Origin: a virus
IMG/VR virus record: IMGVR_UViG_3300030331_003968
Coordinates: 1-21,255 of that record
Length of the DNA stretch: 21,255 nt
Strand: one strand, 5' to 3'
Translations under genes and position numbers: made by a program
The notes under the pieces: model-generated
Databases searched by the model: none
Told to the model about the DNA's origin: nothing
The model's input: the letters and a program-made list of their open reading frames with translations, nothing else
Part shown: positions 2,982 through 15,237 of the stretch, piece by piece
How the letters are laid out: each line of letters begins with the position of its first letter
Position numbering within the stretch: the stretch's first letter is position 1

Positions 2982-3923
2982 TTATGAAGTTGTTAAGTCA
3001 GCAATAGTCGCTGATGATGCTTCATTTTTAGCAACAAGTGTCCATTCTGCCAAGAGTAATCTCTTTTCAGCATCACCTGTTTTCGCTAGTTCTTGTGTTT
3101 GGAAAGGTCTTAAAAACCCTGTAGCAAACATTTCAGTATCTACGGCTAAAGCACTTCTTCCAGAAGAACGAAGGAATCTATCAGCAACCACTCTTACTTC
3201 TCCGAAGTCTGAAACGTAAACGTCAATAGTAGCCACTAGACTTCTATCTTCCGCCATGTCCATACGAGTTGAGTTACCTGTAAATCCAGATACTTTTTGT
3301 TTGTTGAAAGAACCAACTAGCAATAAGTCAGGATCACCGCCATTGTCAAAACAGCTTTTTAGTTCTGTTTTAAGTATTGACTCAGTTAAAACTCTTTGTG
3401 TGCCATCTGTTACAGAGCCACTAGAGTTTGAACCACCTGAACCATAACTGTTGTTGGTTACTGTCCAAGATTCAAAACCTCTTGACTTACGAGCCGAAGC
3501 TCCATTGCCTGAACCTGCTGTTGCATCGTTCTTGCCTGTCAAGTCTAGTTCCATATCTCTTTTGAGTTCTTTCCCTGCTTTCGCTATTTGATAAGCTAGT
3601 TCAGAATCTCTACCTGCGTGATCTACTGCTTCTTGTGTACCTGAAACCATTACCGGTTTGTAAGATATTTGAGTGTGATTAAACACCCTAGTTGTAGCTG
3701 ATAACGCAGCGCTTGGAGAATCATCTCCTTCAATTTGCGCATTTGAAGCTGCTGATGCTAATGAGTCAGTTTGCCATTCGTGCTTAGTAGCAGTCGCATC
3801 ACCTACACCGATAGATGACATAAATGGTGTGTCTGTTGGAGAGATATCGTAGATAATATTCTGCAAGTCCTCTCTATTTCCCACAGCATCATAGGTTTCA
3901 AATGTGTTTGATAATTGCGCCAT
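2982..3923 (-). CDS. Major capsid protein (SU10-type)
   Basis: 313 aa beginning MAQLSNTFETYDAVGNREDL, then a segment reading DISPTDTPFMSSIG (about 27-40), the N-terminal signature of SU10-type major capsid proteins of the HK97 fold. Further typical text includes FNHTQI near 82, GKELKRDMEL near 115 and a C-terminal LLLAEWTLVAKNE. It forms the icosahedral shell. Context agrees: scaffold directly upstream and small head proteins downstream. The start has GAGG about eight bases before ATG, and a 36-base gap separates it from the scaffold stop. The family call is recalled, but the combination of motif and position makes it firm. Confidence 0.9.
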   Translation of the reverse strand: MAQLSNTFETYDAVGNREDLQNIIYDISPTDTPFMSSIGVGDATATKHEWQTDSLASAASNAQIEGDDSPSAALSATTRVFNHTQISYKPVMVSGTQEAVDHAGRDSELAYQIAKAGKELKRDMELDLTGKNDATAGSGNGASARKSRGFESWTVTNNSYGSGGSNSSGSVTDGTQRVLTESILKTELKSCFDNGGDPDLLLVGSFNKQKVSGFTGNSTRMDMAEDRSLVATIDVYVSDFGEVRVVADRFLRSSGRSALAVDTEMFATGFLRPFQTQELAKTGDAEKRLLLAEWTLVAKNEASSATIADLTTS

Positions 3924-6400: not shown

Positions 6401-6558
6401 GCTAGTGGCAATCTTTTTCTTTTTGGATAGAGGTTAAGAGCCATAGCAACCGCTTGTTTTTGTGGTTTGCCTTCTTTTCTTAGTATTCGTATTTTTTTTG
6501 AGATGAGTCTATTTCTGCTCTCATTCTTGTAATCTGGCTTATATTTTGGAAAAGACAT
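6397..6558 (-). CDS. Tiny basic protein, 53 aa (KPQKQAVAMAL motif)
   Basis: The ATG at 6558 overlaps the portal stop (TAATG) and the TGA overlaps the next ATG (ATGA). Sequence: MSFPKYKPDYKNESRNRLIS, then IRILRKEGKPQKQAVAMALN and LYPKRKRLPLA. The KEGKPxKQAVAxAL phrase is common in tiny phage proteins of unknown function; I recall similar text in DUF6496-like proteins but do not assign that family. The gene is almost certainly translated, given the perfect overlaps at both ends. Confidence 0.72.
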   Translation of the reverse strand: MSFPKYKPDYKNESRNRLISKKIRILRKEGKPQKQAVAMALNLYPKRKRLPLA

Positions 6559-8612
6559 TATTTCGGTCCTATCCCAACCGGTCTGCCTTGTACTGCTTCA
6601 AGCGCTAATTCTTGCTCGTTTAGTTCGAGTTGTGATTTTTTCAATTCTAAATCTTTGTTTTTGAGTGCTAAGTTTATTGCAGCTTCTTCTTGTTTTAGCT
6701 TCAATTCTTGTGCTTTTATCTCGGTTTCAATTTGTAATTCTTGTGCCTGAAGTTGTAGTTTTTGTAATTCAACTTGTGCTTTTTGAGCTTGTACTTTCTC
6801 CTCAACTGTAGGTTGCGGTGGTTGAGGTGGTGGCATCATAGCAGGATTTGATATGAATGTATCAGTATTTTTATAACCAGCTTGTGCTATAAACTCACTA
6901 ACTGCATTGTATATATTCTGTGGTTGCACTAATGTACCCATACCACCTTGTTGCACTAAAGTGCTTATAATTTGCATAATACTAGACATTACTTGCATTT
7001 TGCTTTGTTGTGAGCCACTTCCTACACCTACACTAACTGTGCAGTTTAGTTTTTCTTTCCATCTCGATACATCAATCGGTACAAATTTACCATTGAGATA
7101 AAACATTTTCTCACGATCCTCGTATCTCTGGACAAGCGAGTAGATGTTTCTGAATAAATCTTTTACCCCTGTTTCTGCAAAAATACGAGCAATAAGCTCG
7201 ATTCTTTGTGTTGCTGACTCTGTTGCTGCTGATATCGCCCCAGAGGTTACATGAGATGTCAATACTTCAGGATTCAGTCCTTGTGTCATTTTAGATACAC
7301 CTGACCTTTCTTCCCTAATGCCATCTAAGTATCTAACCATATCGAAAGCATAAGGTTGTATTTGTGGTGTCGGCAAAGCAGTTACAGCATTTGGACTTCT
7401 CATTCTGACAATACCACCCGGTCTTGATGTCAATAAATCATCGAGTTCTACTTGCCCTGCTAAAACCGCATACCTTGCATTGTTGGTTAGATACATATTG
7501 TCTAACAGGTTTCTCATAATCGTTGATTTGATAAGCTGTATATCGCTTACAGTATCAGCAATACTCATGCCATAAAACTTATGTGGTATCGGTATTGGGC
7601 AGATAGCTGAGAAAGGAATCATGTCTATCTCGATATTGTCCAATATATAACTACCACCTTTGGTAATCTTTCTAAGTTCGGCAATCCCATCGCCATCGAA
7701 GTCGAGTCTTATGTAACACTCGTCAATCCAAACCTTTTTGTTCGGTCCTTCACCTTCTGATGGTGGTACTGAATCATCATCGTAGCTAAACCTTGCTAGT
7801 CTTTCCTCGTTCAATTCAGCTTCAGAACTCATGTAGCTTGGTATATCTTCGATTACTTTAGGATCGTAACCTTCCTGTATTAGCTCACTTACAGTCTTTT
7901 TTACTCTATGGCATACAAACTGAGCATCGTGTAAATCAACCGCCCTTCTCGACACCAAAAACTCCTCTGGTGGTACAGCTAAGACTCTTACTTGTCCGCT
8001 TGTTGTAGTTCTTTGTACTTTTACATCGTGGCTTTTGATTTCAGGGCTAATCATTATGCCATTTTCATCTGACTGTGCTTTTTGTATTAGTGTTTCAGTA
8101 TGTTCTAATACTTCAAGATCATCATTGGCGAGTATGGCTTGATACTCGATTTCAGTCAGATTTGTGTAATCTTCTTTGGTAACTTCTGTTTTTTCTTCCC
8201 AATAATGCTTGATTATGCCTGTTTTGCTAATGAGTGCGTCTTTAAAAGCATCATACAGCACCTTAAAGCCATTATTTTGGCGCATAAAGACATAATTGAC
8301 GTAATCGGTGGCTTGTCTAGCCATCTCGACATCTTCTGGTCCTTGTGGCTCAAATTCAGCGATGTTGTTGTGTGTAGTAAATATGCGCATAAGCGAAGGC
8401 ATAATATACTCAATCGTATCTCTAACATCTGTGGTAACAATCTCTGATCTGCCATCAATCTCGTTGCCAAACTTCTCACCAAGATAATATTTCATGGCAT
8501 CTTCTCTTTGATTTGAGAGTTCGCTGTTAGCATATCCTGTAGCTGATTGAATTTCTGTGCCTAAATGCGCAACTAATTCGCTTTCAGTCATTATTCTTGG
8601 TTTTTTTGCCAT
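6558..8612 (-). CDS. Portal protein (SU10-type)
   Basis: 684 aa, the usual size for this portal class. Key phrases are YYLGEKFGNEIDGRSEIVT and DVRDTIEYIMPSLMRIFTTH (about 43-80), the typical N-terminal text of these portals, then the wing region with PPEEFLVSRRAVDLHDAQFV and HRVKKTVSEL (about 215-247). The stem region reads VSDIQLIKSTIMRNLLDNMY near 360, with SRPGGIVRM shortly after. The C-terminal fifth is a long Gln/Glu/Lys-rich coiled coil (about 600-675), which fits the barrel of P22-like portals. Twelve copies form the vertex through which DNA is packaged. Large terminase lies two genes upstream in the same operon, as expected. A second ATG seven codons in (MTESEL) could also start it. 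Confidence 0.9.
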   Translation of the reverse strand: MAKKPRIMTESELVAHLGTEIQSATGYANSELSNQREDAMKYYLGEKFGNEIDGRSEIVTTDVRDTIEYIMPSLMRIFTTHNNIAEFEPQGPEDVEMARQATDYVNYVFMRQNNGFKVLYDAFKDALISKTGIIKHYWEEKTEVTKEDYTNLTEIEYQAILANDDLEVLEHTETLIQKAQSDENGIMISPEIKSHDVKVQRTTTSGQVRVLAVPPEEFLVSRRAVDLHDAQFVCHRVKKTVSELIQEGYDPKVIEDIPSYMSSEAELNEERLARFSYDDDSVPPSEGEGPNKKVWIDECYIRLDFDGDGIAELRKITKGGSYILDNIEIDMIPFSAICPIPIPHKFYGMSIADTVSDIQLIKSTIMRNLLDNMYLTNNARYAVLAGQVELDDLLTSRPGGIVRMRSPNAVTALPTPQIQPYAFDMVRYLDGIREERSGVSKMTQGLNPEVLTSHVTSGAISAATESATQRIELIARIFAETGVKDLFRNIYSLVQRYEDREKMFYLNGKFVPIDVSRWKEKLNCTVSVGVGSGSQQSKMQVMSSIMQIISTLVQQGGMGTLVQPQNIYNAVSEFIAQAGYKNTDTFISNPAMMPPPQPPQPTVEEKVQAQKAQVELQKLQLQAQELQIETEIKAQELKLKQEEAAINLALKNKDLELKKSQLELNEQELALEAVQGRPVGIGPK

Positions 8613-9238: not shown

Positions 9239-10660
9239 CTAGACTATTGCTACTTTTGGTCCTAAACGACCTTTTTTGTTCCATTTTGATGTTTCTGTGG
9301 TTGAATGTCTTAGACTCATCACTCCATATCTGGTCGCTGACATCAAATCGTCTTTGAGTTTGACAATTTTGCCATCTTTTCGGTGATAGAGTCTGTATTC
9401 ATCAAACCAATCGTATAATGTGTTAAATACTTTGAATCTTCCTTGCTCCATACGAGTAAGCATATCCATAATTCCTGCTTCAACACTATTGCCACCCTTT
9501 TTTTCACCTAATGCTGGGGGATTTTCAAAGTGAAAGGGTAGCATATTTACATTTGCTTGGCGGTATTGTTCCGCCAGAGTAATTCCTGATCCTTTATCAT
9601 GCTGGTAGCCATCGTGAGGAAAAGCTATTGGAATGTAATGACTACCTTGTCTTTCGTTGATGTGTGTTGCATGATAATCCGGTGTCTGTTTAGACATTTT
9701 GTAACAATCATATATATATACAATGTCCTCATCACGATCCCAAGCAACCCAAACTACTGCGGTTGGATGGTCGTAACCAAAATCAAGACCTGCGATTCGT
9801 GCAAAGTGGGTTGGTATTGCGAAAGGTTCACAGGTCAAGCTGTCCTCTGCGACAGGAAATACAAGTCCACTACCAATCATCGGAATACCTTTGGATCGCA
9901 TATCCCTTTCATGTGGTGGCAGAGCAGCTAAAATCTGTTGTTTCATATCCTGAGTTAAATGTTCAGCATCTTCCCAACCAGCAGTTACCAAACCTTGTCC
10001 CGGTCTTAAATCGTTAGTAAAGTTTTGCACAACCTCTGTCATGCCTGATTCTGGGGTAAAAGTTAGGTAAACCGCCCCATTTTTATCTAAAGTCCTCGTT
10101 ATACATTGAGAGTAGATATCCTGTGGTGGTTCTTCATCGAGCCAGATCAAATCTAAACTCTCACCCATAAACTTCTCAGCGCCCATCTCGTATGCTTTGA
10201 AGGCAACCCTCGACCAACCTCCTGATTTATGTTTTACAAGGACTGATGAGTGTGCATTGGGTACACCAGGCTTCCTTGTGGTTTCGCCAATGAGATGTTT
10301 GGGGATCGAACCTTGCCCTTTATCTCTTGGGTTGTCAGGTTGCCCAAATAATTCTTTTTGACAGATATCTCTAGTGGTTTCATTACTCGCACCACATACC
10401 CATGCCCTAATAGGTTTATCGTATTTTCTTCCTTCCCACCAATCCGGGTATTCACCGGTTAAATGAATAGCAATCTCCATAGCCCCCACATAAGACTTCC
10501 CAACCCTATTCGCTGCCATCAATAGTCTTTGATTAGCTTCCGAGCCTAAATCGTGGAAGTTCTTTTGAAATTTATAGGGTTTGTAATATTTGAGCTTGTT
10601 TTCTTCTTTTCGTTTATTAAGAGTGTTTAGAATCTCTTGAATTCTGTGGTTGTTTTGCAT
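9239..10660 (-). CDS. terL: Terminase large subunit (ATPase-nuclease packaging motor)
   Basis: 473 aa. The ATPase half has a Walker A of the terminase kind, MAANRVGKSYVG (K55, S56), and Walker B LIWLDEEPP (about 171-179, acidic pair DE). A coupling-type TFTPE follows near 200. The nuclease half starts GLDFGYDHPTAVVW (D293), with IAFPHDGY (D350) and a late KDDLMSATRYG, giving the RNase H-like acid set. The protein cuts concatemeric DNA and drives it into the prohead through the portal. The start overlaps the upstream unknown gene by 44 bases. The stop is part of the next gene's ribosome site. The partner small subunit is not adjacent but about 10 kb away at the right end. Confidence 0.95.
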   Translation of the reverse strand: MQNNHRIQEILNTLNKRKEENKLKYYKPYKFQKNFHDLGSEANQRLLMAANRVGKSYVGAMEIAIHLTGEYPDWWEGRKYDKPIRAWVCGASNETTRDICQKELFGQPDNPRDKGQGSIPKHLIGETTRKPGVPNAHSSVLVKHKSGGWSRVAFKAYEMGAEKFMGESLDLIWLDEEPPQDIYSQCITRTLDKNGAVYLTFTPESGMTEVVQNFTNDLRPGQGLVTAGWEDAEHLTQDMKQQILAALPPHERDMRSKGIPMIGSGLVFPVAEDSLTCEPFAIPTHFARIAGLDFGYDHPTAVVWVAWDRDEDIVYIYDCYKMSKQTPDYHATHINERQGSHYIPIAFPHDGYQHDKGSGITLAEQYRQANVNMLPFHFENPPALGEKKGGNSVEAGIMDMLTRMEQGRFKVFNTLYDWFDEYRLYHRKDGKIVKLKDDLMSATRYGVMSLRHSTTETSKWNKKGRLGPKVAIV

Positions 10661-12667: not shown

Positions 12668-12875
12668 ACCATGAATAAATGACACCACTCGCCAATATTA
12701 TCGTGCCAACTGCATTAATCAATATGATTGAATAGTCTTTCCAAAGCACACCAACCCATAACCACCCTAATACACCTATAAGTTGAATATATAAGTTCAA
12801 TGGGTAGATATTGAGTGCAGTTAGGCACAATCCACTTGATAAGATGATTGAGCTAGTCCACTTTAGTATATTCAT
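12666..12875 (-). CDS. Small membrane protein, 69 aa (DUF6552-like)
   Basis: Three hydrophobic stretches are visible: about 6-24 (WTSSIILSSGLCLTALNIY), 28-45 (LYIQLIGVLGWLWVGVLW) and 48-69 (YSIILINAVGTIILASGVIY). The pattern NILKWTS...YPLN...LGWLWV...W+...NA resembles the small marine-phage membrane family I recall as DUF6552; this is not verified. It likely sits in the inner membrane; a role in lysis or superinfection exclusion would be guesswork. It overlaps the methyltransferase gene by 23 bases and closes the minus-strand operon. Confidence 0.72.
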   Translation of the reverse strand: MNILKWTSSIILSSGLCLTALNIYPLNLYIQLIGVLGWLWVGVLWKDYSIILINAVGTIILASGVIYSW

Positions 12876-14073
12876 CTTCTGCTTCTAATATCGCAAGTCC
12901 AATTTGATAAGCAATCTGTGGCACAATCGCATTGCCTAGTCCTTTAAGTCTGTCCACCCTATCGGATATCCCATGAGCCACTCTACCCACATTGGGTTCA
13001 GATGACCACCACGAGGTTTGTCTGTGTATGCCACTTCTGTTTCTAAATACTTCTTGTGATGAAGTTTCTCCATGTTCTCTGTCAGTTTCATGTGCATACC
13101 TATCGCTGATCTCGGAGTCGGCCACATCTTGTTTGGTTTCTCCGACTGACTGTCTGTTACTGCGGCATTTAGACTCCACCCATGAGTTCCCTTTATCATG
13201 CTCGGACTTGGTTTCTCGTGGTATGCCATCCTGTTTGTTGCTCTCGGAGTCGGCCACATCTGTGACAACTTCTTGCCTCTCTCTCTCAAACCCTCTGCTA
13301 TCATAACTTCCTCGTTCAAAACCTTGCCCCCTTTTCCATTCGGTCTGCTCCCGCCCCCTGTTCTCGGAGTCGGCCACATTCTGTTGTGTACTTGTTCTCT
13401 CAGATTCGAGCATCCGCCCTTGTTCGCTTTCTCGCTTCTCTCCTCTGGCTTCCTTACATCTGTCCTGTAATCCATTGTGCTTGGAGTAGCCCACAATCCC
13501 TCTCTGACTTGTACTGTTTGCGCAAGATTCAAACTGTTTCTCTTTTCTTGACTCGGACTCATCTGTTGGTCTGCTCTCCCTGATGTCGGAGTGGGCCACA
13601 ATCCAGACTCTGTATCTTTGGTGCGGGGCATTGACTGCTGAAGCTGGAATAATAAACGATTGGACTTCGTAACCTTCGTTTTCCAAGTCAGTACACACTT
13701 GTTCGAGTACCATGCCTTCTTGGATTGAAGTAATATTCCTAACATTCTCGAAAATAACCCATCTTGGGTTCGATATTTTGATGACTCGTAACATTTCTGG
13801 CCAGAGATGGCGATCATCTTCTGTACCCTTTCTTTTACCTGCGACTGAGAAAGGTTGGCATGGTGCTCCCCCACACACAAGCCCAATTCCATCTGATCTT
13901 TTCGGTTCATAATTTTTAATATCTCCTGTAATTGGTACATTCGGAAAGTTTTTTGCCAAAACCTTCTGACACCATTCGTTATTTTCTACAAATTGGACTG
14001 TTTCAAATCCACCTGTACTCTCTAATCCTAAACTAAATCCACCTATACCGCTAAATAAATCAATAACTTTCAC
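12853..14073 (-). CDS. DNA cytosine-C5 methyltransferase
   Basis: 406 aa with the classical C5 motif order: motif I DLFSGIGGFSLGLE (5-18, AdoMet site), an acidic VENN (29-32), motif IV GGAPCQPFSVAGKR with catalytic Cys72, motif VI ENV (109-111), motif VIII QRYRVWIVA (152-160), and a C-terminal RVDRLKGLGNAIVPQIA (motifs IX-X, about 372-388). It would methylate the C5 of cytosine in phage DNA, probably to evade host restriction. The target-recognition part (about 161-360) is a polar low-complexity stretch with repeated VADSE phrases instead of a compact domain. The start is GTG 14073, with AAGGAG unusually far (13 bases). An in-frame TGA rules out a longer form. A second long frame lies entirely inside. 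Base use is visibly more G+C-rich than in its neighbours, suggesting transfer. Confidence 0.93.
   Translation of the reverse strand: MKVIDLFSGIGGFSLGLESTGGFETVQFVENNEWCQKVLAKNFPNVPITGDIKNYEPKRSDGIGLVCGGAPCQPFSVAGKRKGTEDDRHLWPEMLRVIKISNPRWVIFENVRNITSIQEGMVLEQVCTDLENEGYEVQSFIIPASAVNAPHQRYRVWIVAHSDIRESRPTDESESRKEKQFESCANSTSQRGIVGYSKHNGLQDRCKEARGEKRESEQGRMLESERTSTQQNVADSENRGREQTEWKRGQGFERGSYDSRGFERERQEVVTDVADSESNKQDGIPRETKSEHDKGNSWVESKCRSNRQSVGETKQDVADSEISDRYAHETDREHGETSSQEVFRNRSGIHRQTSWWSSEPNVGRVAHGISDRVDRLKGLGNAIVPQIAYQIGLAILEAEDEYTKVD
12936..13940 (-). CDS. Candidate overlapping gene: WPTP-repeat protein nested in the methyltransferase gene
   Basis: A 334-codon open frame in the +1 frame relative to the methyltransferase, fully inside it. 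Translation gives a mid-section reading CVLTWKTKVTKSNRLLFQLQ, then SMPRTKDTESGLWPTPTSG, repeats LWATPSTMDY, MWPTPRTGGG, MWPTPRATN and MWPTPRSAIG, and a C-terminal NPMWVEWLMGYPIGWTDL. I recall very similar WPTP-repeat proteins ending in NPxWVEWLMGxPxGWTDL in many phage genomes, often mislabelled as methyltransferases. The likely start is ATG 13910 (MNRKDQ), with AGGAG 12 bases upstream, or ATG 13940. Conservation in this frame could still be a by-product of the methyltransferase frame, so the coding call is tentative. No enzymatic motif is seen. Confidence 0.45.
   Translation of the reverse strand: MYQLQEILKIMNRKDQMELGLCVGEHHANLSQSQVKERVQKMIAISGQKCYESSKYRTQDGLFSRMLGILLQSKKAWYSNKCVLTWKTKVTKSNRLLFQLQQSMPRTKDTESGLWPTPTSGRADQQMSPSQEKRNSLNLAQTVQVREGLWATPSTMDYRTDVRKPEERSEKANKGGCSNLREQVHNRMWPTPRTGGGSRPNGKGGKVLNEEVMIAEGLRERGKKLSQMWPTPRATNRMAYHEKPSPSMIKGTHGWSLNAAVTDSQSEKPNKMWPTPRSAIGMHMKLTENMEKLHHKKYLETEVAYTDKPRGGHLNPMWVEWLMGYPIGWTDLKD
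13111..13601 (-). repeat. Five phased copies of a 17-bp repeat in the methyltransferase gene
   Basis: CTCGGAGTCGGCCACAT occurs exactly at 13111-13127, 13243-13259 and 13363-13379, with two diverged copies at 13480-13496 and 13585-13601. Offsets are 132, 120, 117 and 105 bases, all multiples of three, so the frame meaning is kept. In the methyltransferase frame the exact copies read VADSE; in the nested frame they read MWPTPR. The 3'-most coding copies are the most alike. Confidence 0.8.
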
Positions 14074-14683
14074 TATAATTCAATATCTCCTTAATAAGCA
14101 AGGGTGGAACTGCACCTTTTGCTGCACCTTTGACACCTTGCAACCCTGTAGTCGCACCTCTCGGTGCTGGTTCGTGACAAGACATCCCGGCTTTACAACT
14201 TTTAGCGACCATTTGCCAATTAGGATTGTTCGACCAGATATCAGTTGGTTTCATATATCTAAATCCATATTGGCAATATGTTACTGTAGTATATGGATAA
14301 GGTATAAGATTCATTTTTCTCAGCATGGCTCTAGGATTTTCGATATAAAAGTATTTAGGATTTAATTCTTCTATAATCTTGACTGTTTTTTTAACAATTT
14401 CCATCGCATAATAAGTTTCTTTATTTTTAGGTGTGAATGGTCCATCTTTTTTACCTTCCCAATTACGACCAAGAGCAGCTACACTAAATTTCTGACAAGG
14501 CGGACTTGCCCATATAATATCCGGCTTGTAATCTTTTAGTATAAATACATCAAAATCCATGATGTCCATAGTGAAATCAGCATTAAACTGATCTTCATTG
14601 TCTAGTGTTTTAGTTTCATAACCAAACTGTTTAGCTACTCTACTAAAACTTTTTGTGCCACAAAATAATTCTAATGTTTTCAT
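14060..14683 (-). CDS. Second cytosine-C5 methyltransferase-family protein, 207 aa
   Basis: It begins MKTLELFCGTKSFSRVAKQF, a motif I variant (LELFCGTKSFS), then IIWASPPCQKFSVAALG with a motif IV PPCQ (Cys63) and FYIENPRAMLRKM in the motif VI place (IENP instead of ENV). The protein is short: motif VIII and the C-terminal motif X helix of full C5 enzymes are not evident. Related short phage proteins are common and called DNA methyltransferases, but their specificity is generally unknown. The gene overlaps the next methyltransferase by 14 bases and its ATG overlaps the previous stop, so both enzymes come from one transcript. It may act alone, need a partner, or be specialised in non-standard substrates. 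Confidence 0.8.
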   Translation of the reverse strand: MKTLELFCGTKSFSRVAKQFGYETKTLDNEDQFNADFTMDIMDFDVFILKDYKPDIIWASPPCQKFSVAALGRNWEGKKDGPFTPKNKETYYAMEIVKKTVKIIEELNPKYFYIENPRAMLRKMNLIPYPYTTVTYCQYGFRYMKPTDIWSNNPNWQMVAKSCKAGMSCHEPAPRGATTGLQGVKGAAKGAVPPLLIKEILNYSESY

Positions 14684-15237
14684 GTGTCACCGATTTTTGA
14701 TAAGGCGGATATTTCAATATTTTGTAATTTTTCGAGTAAATTATGGTAAAAATCTTTGTAAATTGAGTAATTTTTTCTCGTTAATCCAATCATTTCTCTA
14801 CGATTATTGTCATCATATATAAAGTTACCTGAGTTATCACAATGCACACATTTAGTAATTTGACTCAGATTTGCTATAAAACCTTTGCCATTACAGATTG
14901 GACAAGCATTTTCTATAACTTCTCTCATTGCTAAATTTATAAATTTTTGTATTAAACTCCTTTGATGTCCTATAGTCGTTTTGTGTTGTAATTTTTTGTC
15001 TTTTAGTAAATTTATGAAATTGTTATAAGTTTGGTAATACAATTCTTGTGATATTAAAGACCTTGCTTTAGAGTTGTCAGCATATTTTGCTACTAGAAGG
15101 TTGTACTCAACACCAGACAAACCCCTTGTGCCGAGATAATGTGCTATATCTTCTGGTAAAACTGCATCATGGTTTTTGCTCGATGGCTCTAAGCTCATAG
15201 ATTTAGCAGTTAATAATTTGATAATCTCAGCTTTCAT
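14680..15237 (-). CDS. Zinc-finger protein resembling phage antiterminator Q
   Basis: 185 aa. A four-cysteine zinc knuckle is clear: CPICNGKGF (C112, C115) and CVHCDNSGNF (C130, C133). It is followed by RREMIGLTRKNYSIYKDFYH and a helical end (NLLEKLQNIEI). The CxxCxGxG...CxxCxxxG pair followed by an R-x-x-x-GL-x-x-x-x-Y helix is the layout of lambdoid Q-type late antitermination proteins. An alternative is a DnaJ-type zinc knuckle protein. If it is Q-like, its natural target would be the late promoter at 11118-11146. It lies just upstream of the methyltransferases and overlaps the nuclease gene by 11 bases. Confidence 0.6.
   Translation of the reverse strand: MKAEIIKLLTAKSMSLEPSSKNHDAVLPEDIAHYLGTRGLSGVEYNLLVAKYADNSKARSLISQELYYQTYNNFINLLKDKKLQHKTTIGHQRSLIQKFINLAMREVIENACPICNGKGFIANLSQITKCVHCDNSGNFIYDDNNRREMIGLTRKNYSIYKDFYHNLLEKLQNIEISALSKIGDT

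Follow-up and report, generated by a model that had tools for sequence, protein, structure and literature searches.

The 21,255-nt stretch of viral DNA analysed here (the window) encodes an SU10-type major capsid protein (2982-3923), an SU10-type portal (6558-8612) and a large terminase (9239-10660), all on the minus strand, which mark it as a fragment of an SU10-like phage. On the same strand lies a 406-aa C5-cytosine DNA methyltransferase (MTase), which matches PF00145 (2.3e-51) and TIGR00675 (1.9e-45) and whose core is grouped structurally with M.HaeIII and M.HhaI by Foldseek. The features of the MTase frame are as follows.

12853-14073, minus strand: C5-cytosine DNA methyltransferase (catalytic polypeptide), 406 aa, GTG start
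13585-14073, minus strand: catalytic core, motifs I-VIII, residues 1-163, matching the M.HhaI profile
12940-13524, minus strand: tail, residues 184-378, predicted disordered, amino-acid-neutral, stop-free
12856-12948, minus strand: motif X and C-terminal helix (LKGLGNAIVPQIAYQIGLAILEAED...), where the MTase frame is again constrained

The match of the MTase profile to M.HhaI is confined to residues 1-163 and ends at motif VIII. In the AlphaFold2 (AF2) model, the pLDDT is mostly 80-97 in the catalytic core, where the catalytic loops score lower, stays below 50 at nearly all of residues 184-380, and is about 75-95 in the C-terminal helix (379-405). Because the M.HhaI match stops at residue 163 and the tail scores below 50, the MTase frame has neither a folded TRD nor motif IX. 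It differs in this from the canonical single-chain C5-MTase, whose catalytic frame includes both elements, and has the composition of an M.EcoHK31I-type large polypeptide, namely motifs I-VIII and X and no motif IX.

A second ORF of 334 codons with an ATG start (12936-13940, minus strand) lies fully within the MTase ORF in the +1 frame of the same strand, as an earlier reading from the sequence only had described; the LTWK...LLFQLQ..MPRT start, the five W(P/A)TP units and the WVEWLMGYPIGWTDL end given in that reading are all present. The nested stop codon, TAG at 12936-12938, falls within the GLG codons of MTase motif X. VADSE in the MTase frame (GTGGCCGACTCCGAG) reads WPTPR one base later, and the MTase-frame EPxVGRVAHGIPxRVDR corresponds to the nested-frame LNPxWVEWLMGxPxGWT. 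The nested protein matches phrog_1008 (named 'DNA methyltransferase') at 3.4e-29, and zero matches were obtained for it in Pfam and NCBIfam or in a PDB sequence search with the nested profile. The features of this frame are listed below.

12936-13910, minus strand: nested +1-frame gene, 324 aa when read from the conserved ATG 13910 (334 aa with ATG 13940)
13923-13927, minus strand: Shine-Dalgarno sequence AGGAG, 12 bases ahead of ATG 13910
13599-13847, minus strand: conserved N-terminal part, residues 22-104, with predicted helices (22-62) and a β-hairpin (LTWKTKVTKSNRLLFQLQ, 73-93)
13494-13598, minus strand: WPTP module 1 (WPTPTSGRADQQ...)
13377-13493, minus strand: WPTP module 2 (WATPSTMDYRTD...)
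13257-13376, minus strand: WPTP module 3 (WPTPRTGGGSRP...)
13125-13256, minus strand: WPTP module 4 (WPTPRATNRMAY...)
13002-13124, minus strand: WPTP module 5 (WPTPRSAIGMHM...)
12945-13001, minus strand: C-terminal motif LNPMWVEWLMGYPIGWTDL, resembling motif IX of C5-MTases in a spaced pattern

The ribosome site suggested by the sequence-only reading, AGGAG before ATG 13910, stood, but the ORF start at ATG 13940 did not, since relatives carry +1 stops at MTase codons 47-51 and the conserved start is therefore ATG 13910. With this ATG and the AGGAG at 13923-13927, the nested protein is most likely 324 aa long. Across relatives, the last +1 stop is found at or before MTase codon 57, and the first nested ATG mostly falls within codons 48-55 and is usually accompanied by a Shine-Dalgarno site, as in AGGAGGATATAAAAAATG and AAAGGAGTTAGTAAATG. 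A five-base Shine-Dalgarno sequence is present in 34 of 65 distinct nested-start contexts, against 10.4 expected by synonymous redrawing. The frame possesses its own start and ribosome site, as an overprinted gene should. The synonymous divergence of the MTase, a check that the sequence-only reading had proposed, drops near the nested start. From about 0.29 it reaches 0.05-0.11 around codons 50-59, returns to about 0.25 at codons 70-79 and is 0.03-0.13 from codon 80 onward.

Stop codons and selection in the two frames

We pooled the distinct genes from all searches, and relatives were gathered twice by the MTase N-terminus alone, so that the selection cannot favour the nested frame. In 117 distinct related phage MTase genes, the +1 frame contains no stop in 22,187 tail codons, whereas 821 are expected from amino-acid-preserving codon resampling with neighbouring-gene usage and 368 after shuffling each gene's own synonymous codons; the genes are kin and the counts are not independent trials, which the use of disjoint pairs and of two subfamilies reduces but does not remove. 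The shuffling comparison had been put forward with the sequence-only reading, which had also named frequent nested stops in homologues as the sign of a mere shadow; such stops are absent from the relatives chosen blind to the nested frame. In the window's own subfamily (L089-L168), every full-length gene is free of +1 stops from the end of the core up to its last 32 codons. A second MTase subfamily (MNELALFAGAGGG-type, GC 0.46-0.63) has three +1 stops against 281 expected, with the +1 frame open across practically the whole MTase and with the two ATGs four bases apart (ATGAATG). In contrast, canonical M.HhaI-type phage MTases have 903 +1 stops against 886 expected, with no depletion and no open gene.

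In the reverse test, with the nested protein held fixed, the MTase frame shows 0 stops where 869.5 are expected, compared with 1607 against 1488 in the third frame. By these counts, the MTase frame and the +1 frame are both maintained open, and no other frame is. The alternate frame is open beyond the expectation from its host frame, as the sequence-only reading had held. One gene of the second subfamily (L219) is the sole gene seen with a nested stop in the early overlap, at codon 120, from either a sequencing error or decay.

The distribution of substitutions changes along the gene. We compared 50 disjoint pairs for their divergence at MTase codon positions 1/2/3. Ahead of the overlap it is 0.096/0.041/0.279, within the overlapped core 0.072/0.029/0.135, across the tail 0.270/0.158/0.169, and for the C-terminal end 0.133/0.082/0.278. 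Single changes in the tail comprise 730 that are MTase-nonsynonymous and nested-synonymous versus 123 that are MTase-synonymous and nested-nonsynonymous. We calculated the selection ratios w0 (MTase) and w+1 (nested) by a counting version of the dNN/dNS/dSN/dSS method, with no likelihood model, and obtained the following values.

Non-overlapped start (control): w0 0.16-0.25, w+1 0.9-1.4
Overlapped core: w0 0.12-0.20, w+1 0.36-0.59
Tail: w0 0.97-1.44, w+1 0.38-0.56
Tail, window's own clade: w0 1.0-1.6, w+1 0.27-0.43
WVEWLMG block (the motif-IX-like element): w0 0.5-0.9, w+1 0.18-0.34
Motif X end: w0 0.32, w+1 0.67

The core values apply to nested residues 22-104, whose DNA also encodes MTase motifs IV-VIII. 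The ratios show the alternate frame to be under purifying selection, as for an overprinted gene. By the same ratios, conservation of the tail serves the nested protein, and the MTase crosses it as an unconstrained linker that is merely kept open. The sequence-only reading had proposed a gene made from the variable region of the MTase; the tail ratios reverse this relation, as the 'variable region' is itself the passenger.

At ten loci, the nested frame runs 126-171 aa beyond the MTase stop. In eight of the ten, the other frames of this extension hold 14-19 stops each, and the nested-frame differences amount to 682 synonymous versus 96 nonsynonymous, summed over 26 non-independent pairwise comparisons; together with the stops in the other frames, they indicate that the extension is ordinary coding sequence.

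The nested frame is almost certainly a real coding sequence, and the stop, substitution and start evidence strongly supports the widespread overprinted gene and two-product locus that the sequence-only reading had offered as one of two options. The other option, a conserved shadow left open only through MTase conservation or compositional bias, could draw on the regular look of the +1 readings over the conserved motif VIII and motif X regions. It is refuted by the depletion of stops in both subfamilies and its absence in canonical MTases, by a tail conserved in the nested rather than the MTase frame, and by nested coding that continues past the MTase stop, and we give it practically no weight. 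Hardly more credible is a constraint at the DNA level, in which recombination or binding sites, and not coding, keep the repeats alike: GTGGCCGACTCCG is indeed repeated in an AT-rich phage and such repeats may aid module recombination, yet tail changes concentrate at nested-frame third positions and the third frame shows no shortage of stops, a frame-specific pattern that led us to reject this explanation.

WPTP modules and the motif-IX-like end

The AF2 model of the nested protein has a mean pLDDT of 52, with the helices at 22-62, the hairpin at 73-93 and the C-terminal WVEWLMG helix above the remainder. For the WPTP modules between them no fold is predicted, in contrast to the TRD of M.HhaI. 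A Foldseek search with this low-confidence model gave a known relative from marine phage KT997847 as its sole match (E 1.5e-3).

Each module consists of [WYF]xTP, a variable part and LxxxV, with a median of 41 aa. We counted 435 units in 117 nested proteins, with one to seven per protein and five in the window, and clustering at 55% identity yields 76 types. Each of the 37 types with at least three members occurs beside differing neighbours, and 33 of the 37 occur at differing positions in the row. Identities between modules refer to the nested frame, and the MTase frame goes along with it. A total of 481 module pairs are at least 60% identical between genes whose cores are less than 55% identical, and modules up to 87% identical are found in genes with 36-45% identical MTase cores, also across both subfamilies. 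In the window, module 1 is 86% identical to a module of L073, with which the MTase core shares 49% identity, and module 4 is 88% identical in L019 and L062, with cores about 57% identical. Such shuffling indicates that the WPTP modules are exchanged as cassettes between distant phages, as specificity modules would show.

The nested protein ends in a motif-IX-like LxP.....LMGYP. The pattern L.P.....[LVIM][QM][GA][FYWL], chosen after both motifs were seen, is present in 168 of 189 nested proteins and in none of the 189 MTase frames, while the same pattern is present in 48 of 53 canonical MTases (motif IX) and in 2 of 3780 shuffled proteins. An unbiased motif-IX profile scores weakly on the nested proteins (0.2 bits for the window; median 0.7). 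As the pattern was post hoc and the profile score low, the similarity is only suggestive of a counterpart of motif IX.

Some nested proteins carry an extra, conserved C-terminal domain (...HWLRSDHCFAYPTVEYWNMIKPYL...; L163:3909-4286 and L018:3275-3697), for which searches of Pfam, PHROGs and the PDB gave no clear match.

Known methylases and the probable role of the nested protein

M.EcoHK31I was reportedly described as a two-polypeptide C5-MTase by Lee, Kam and Shaw in 1995, and its small gene is said to be nested within the large gene in another frame. According to PMC3404938, this enzyme (YGGCCR) has a large polypeptide with motifs I-VIII and X and a small one with motif IX, and its predicted TRD is placed in the large subunit. 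This division of motifs would be shared here, with motifs I-VIII and X in the catalytic frame and a candidate motif-IX element on the other polypeptide. However, the present nested protein has one to seven shuffled WPTP modules, and the tail of the large frame is neutral and predicted disordered; recognition thus appears to reside in the nested protein, unlike in M.EcoHK31I. M.AquI likewise carries motif IX on another polypeptide than motifs I-VIII, but its motif X is on the small subunit instead of the large frame (PMC3404938).

In the case of the Bacillus phage C5-MTases (SPR, phi3T, rho11 and H2), tandem exchangeable TRDs address several targets, according to PMC8936443. Tandem modules in a phage C5-MTase are common to both systems, and those described here are exchanged and have a putative recognition role. 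The Bacillus phage TRDs, however, lie in the MTase polypeptide, whereas the WPTP modules lie off the catalytic polypeptide, in a separate overprinted +1 frame with its own start, and have no predicted fold. The ShiLan-type hidden homing endonuclease is likewise a second protein in another frame of a phage methylase, but that one is a patchily distributed mobile insertion that encodes an HNH nuclease, while the present nested frame occurs in nearly every gene of the tested subfamilies and starts within the catalytic region; no Pfam match to any HNH family was found in it.

The locus probably encodes a two-polypeptide C5-methylase, with the gene for its recognition subunit overprinted on that for the catalytic one. 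The long frame would give a catalytic polypeptide with motifs I-VIII, a disordered linker and motif X, and the nested +1 frame, translated from its own Shine-Dalgarno sequence and ATG 13910, would give a partner supplying the motif-IX-like C-terminal element that the long frame lacks. Between a docking N-terminus and this end, the tandem exchangeable WPTP modules may choose the DNA sequence to be methylated, and the phage may mark its own DNA against host restriction and change the specificity by module swapping. We infer the recognition role of the nested protein as the likelier function, and we consider the whole reading, in which two proteins form one enzyme, the modules act as TRDs and the product is protection from restriction, to be likely but well short of secure. 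A more specific form is put forward tentatively, at somewhat less than even chances: each module may be an independent target-recognition cassette acting in trans and the nested protein a programmable specificity subunit, so that the module list would set the methylated sequences while divergent cores exchange cassettes with both frames kept open.

All of the coding evidence fits equally well a nested protein that is real and independently translated yet acts outside the methylase, for example, as an anti-restriction, DNA-binding or host-takeover protein, and the predicted disorder of the module region and the extra C-terminal domain without known function at some loci agree with it. We consider such a role unlikely, because the MTase has no TRD or motif IX at the very place where the nested frame has a motif-IX-like element, canonical TRD-bearing MTases have no open nested frame, the modules shuffle like specificity cassettes, and M.EcoHK31I offers a precedent. 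The order of motifs in the DNA, I-VIII in frame 0, modules and IX in +1 and X in frame 0, is that of a canonical MTase and would suit programmed ribosomal frameshifting, with a fusion of core, WPTP modules and motif IX made beside an unshifted motif X product. This is highly improbable, as the nested constraint sets in at about MTase codon 50, far ahead of the junction of core and tail, and the nested ATG is conserved with a Shine-Dalgarno site.

If recognition does lie with the nested protein, earlier work has looked for the specificity of these enzymes in the wrong reading frame, and phage DNA methylation would have a readable code in the list of modules. The locus also offers an unusually clean and large natural case of overlapping genes, in which one frame is amino-acid-neutral, the other is selected, and both are open.

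Occurrence and annotation

Both frames co-occur in very different MTases across phage records, and the phages and prophages with the nested gene include marine phages, actinophages and those of Paenibacillus, Lacticaseibacillus, Acinetobacter and Enterobacteriaceae. The WPTP-repeat proteins mentioned in the sequence-only reading do exist, and in every phage record whose frames were inspected they represent the same +1 frame; a standalone WPTP family without an overlapping MTase was rejected since all frame-inspected records had an MTase in the other frame. A genome-collection search returned two loci only. A restriction-modification system with the nested frame was sought in E. coli and plasmids, where the inspected loci were prophages or lay beside other methylase genes, and we found no paper describing the nested WPTP family in the openly licensed literature.

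The nested-frame product is already in databases, as 'DNA methyltransferase' or 'hypothetical', and the family so labelled is a separate gene overprinted on the C5-methylases of many phages and prophages. The same +1-frame product is phrog_1008, which bears the PHROG label methyltransferase yet has no catalytic motifs, and the 'g50 internal gene' (REDBUD_51) of Paenibacillus phage Redbud, to which the submitters gave no function. In Pseudomonas phage phPA-G (L170:2707-3432), only the nested frame is annotated, and the MTase frame, open alongside, was missed. In marine phage KT997847 (L004:2363-3199), the MTase is annotated as two pieces, the second of which is the nested frame, named 'putative cytosine-specific methyltransferase'. 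The copy in an E. coli prophage (L340:2989-4158) is annotated as two incomplete MTase pseudogenes with about 100 bases between them.

Directly upstream of the MTase in the window, and overlapping its start by 14 bases, a gene at 14060-14683 (minus strand) encodes a 207-aa C5-methylase-like protein (PF00145, 3.6e-10; phrog_757) with no apparent TRD or motif X. The gene at 14680-15237 (minus strand) encodes an antitermination Q-like protein (phrog_127, 8.7e-9) that weakly matches the DnaJ zinc domain.
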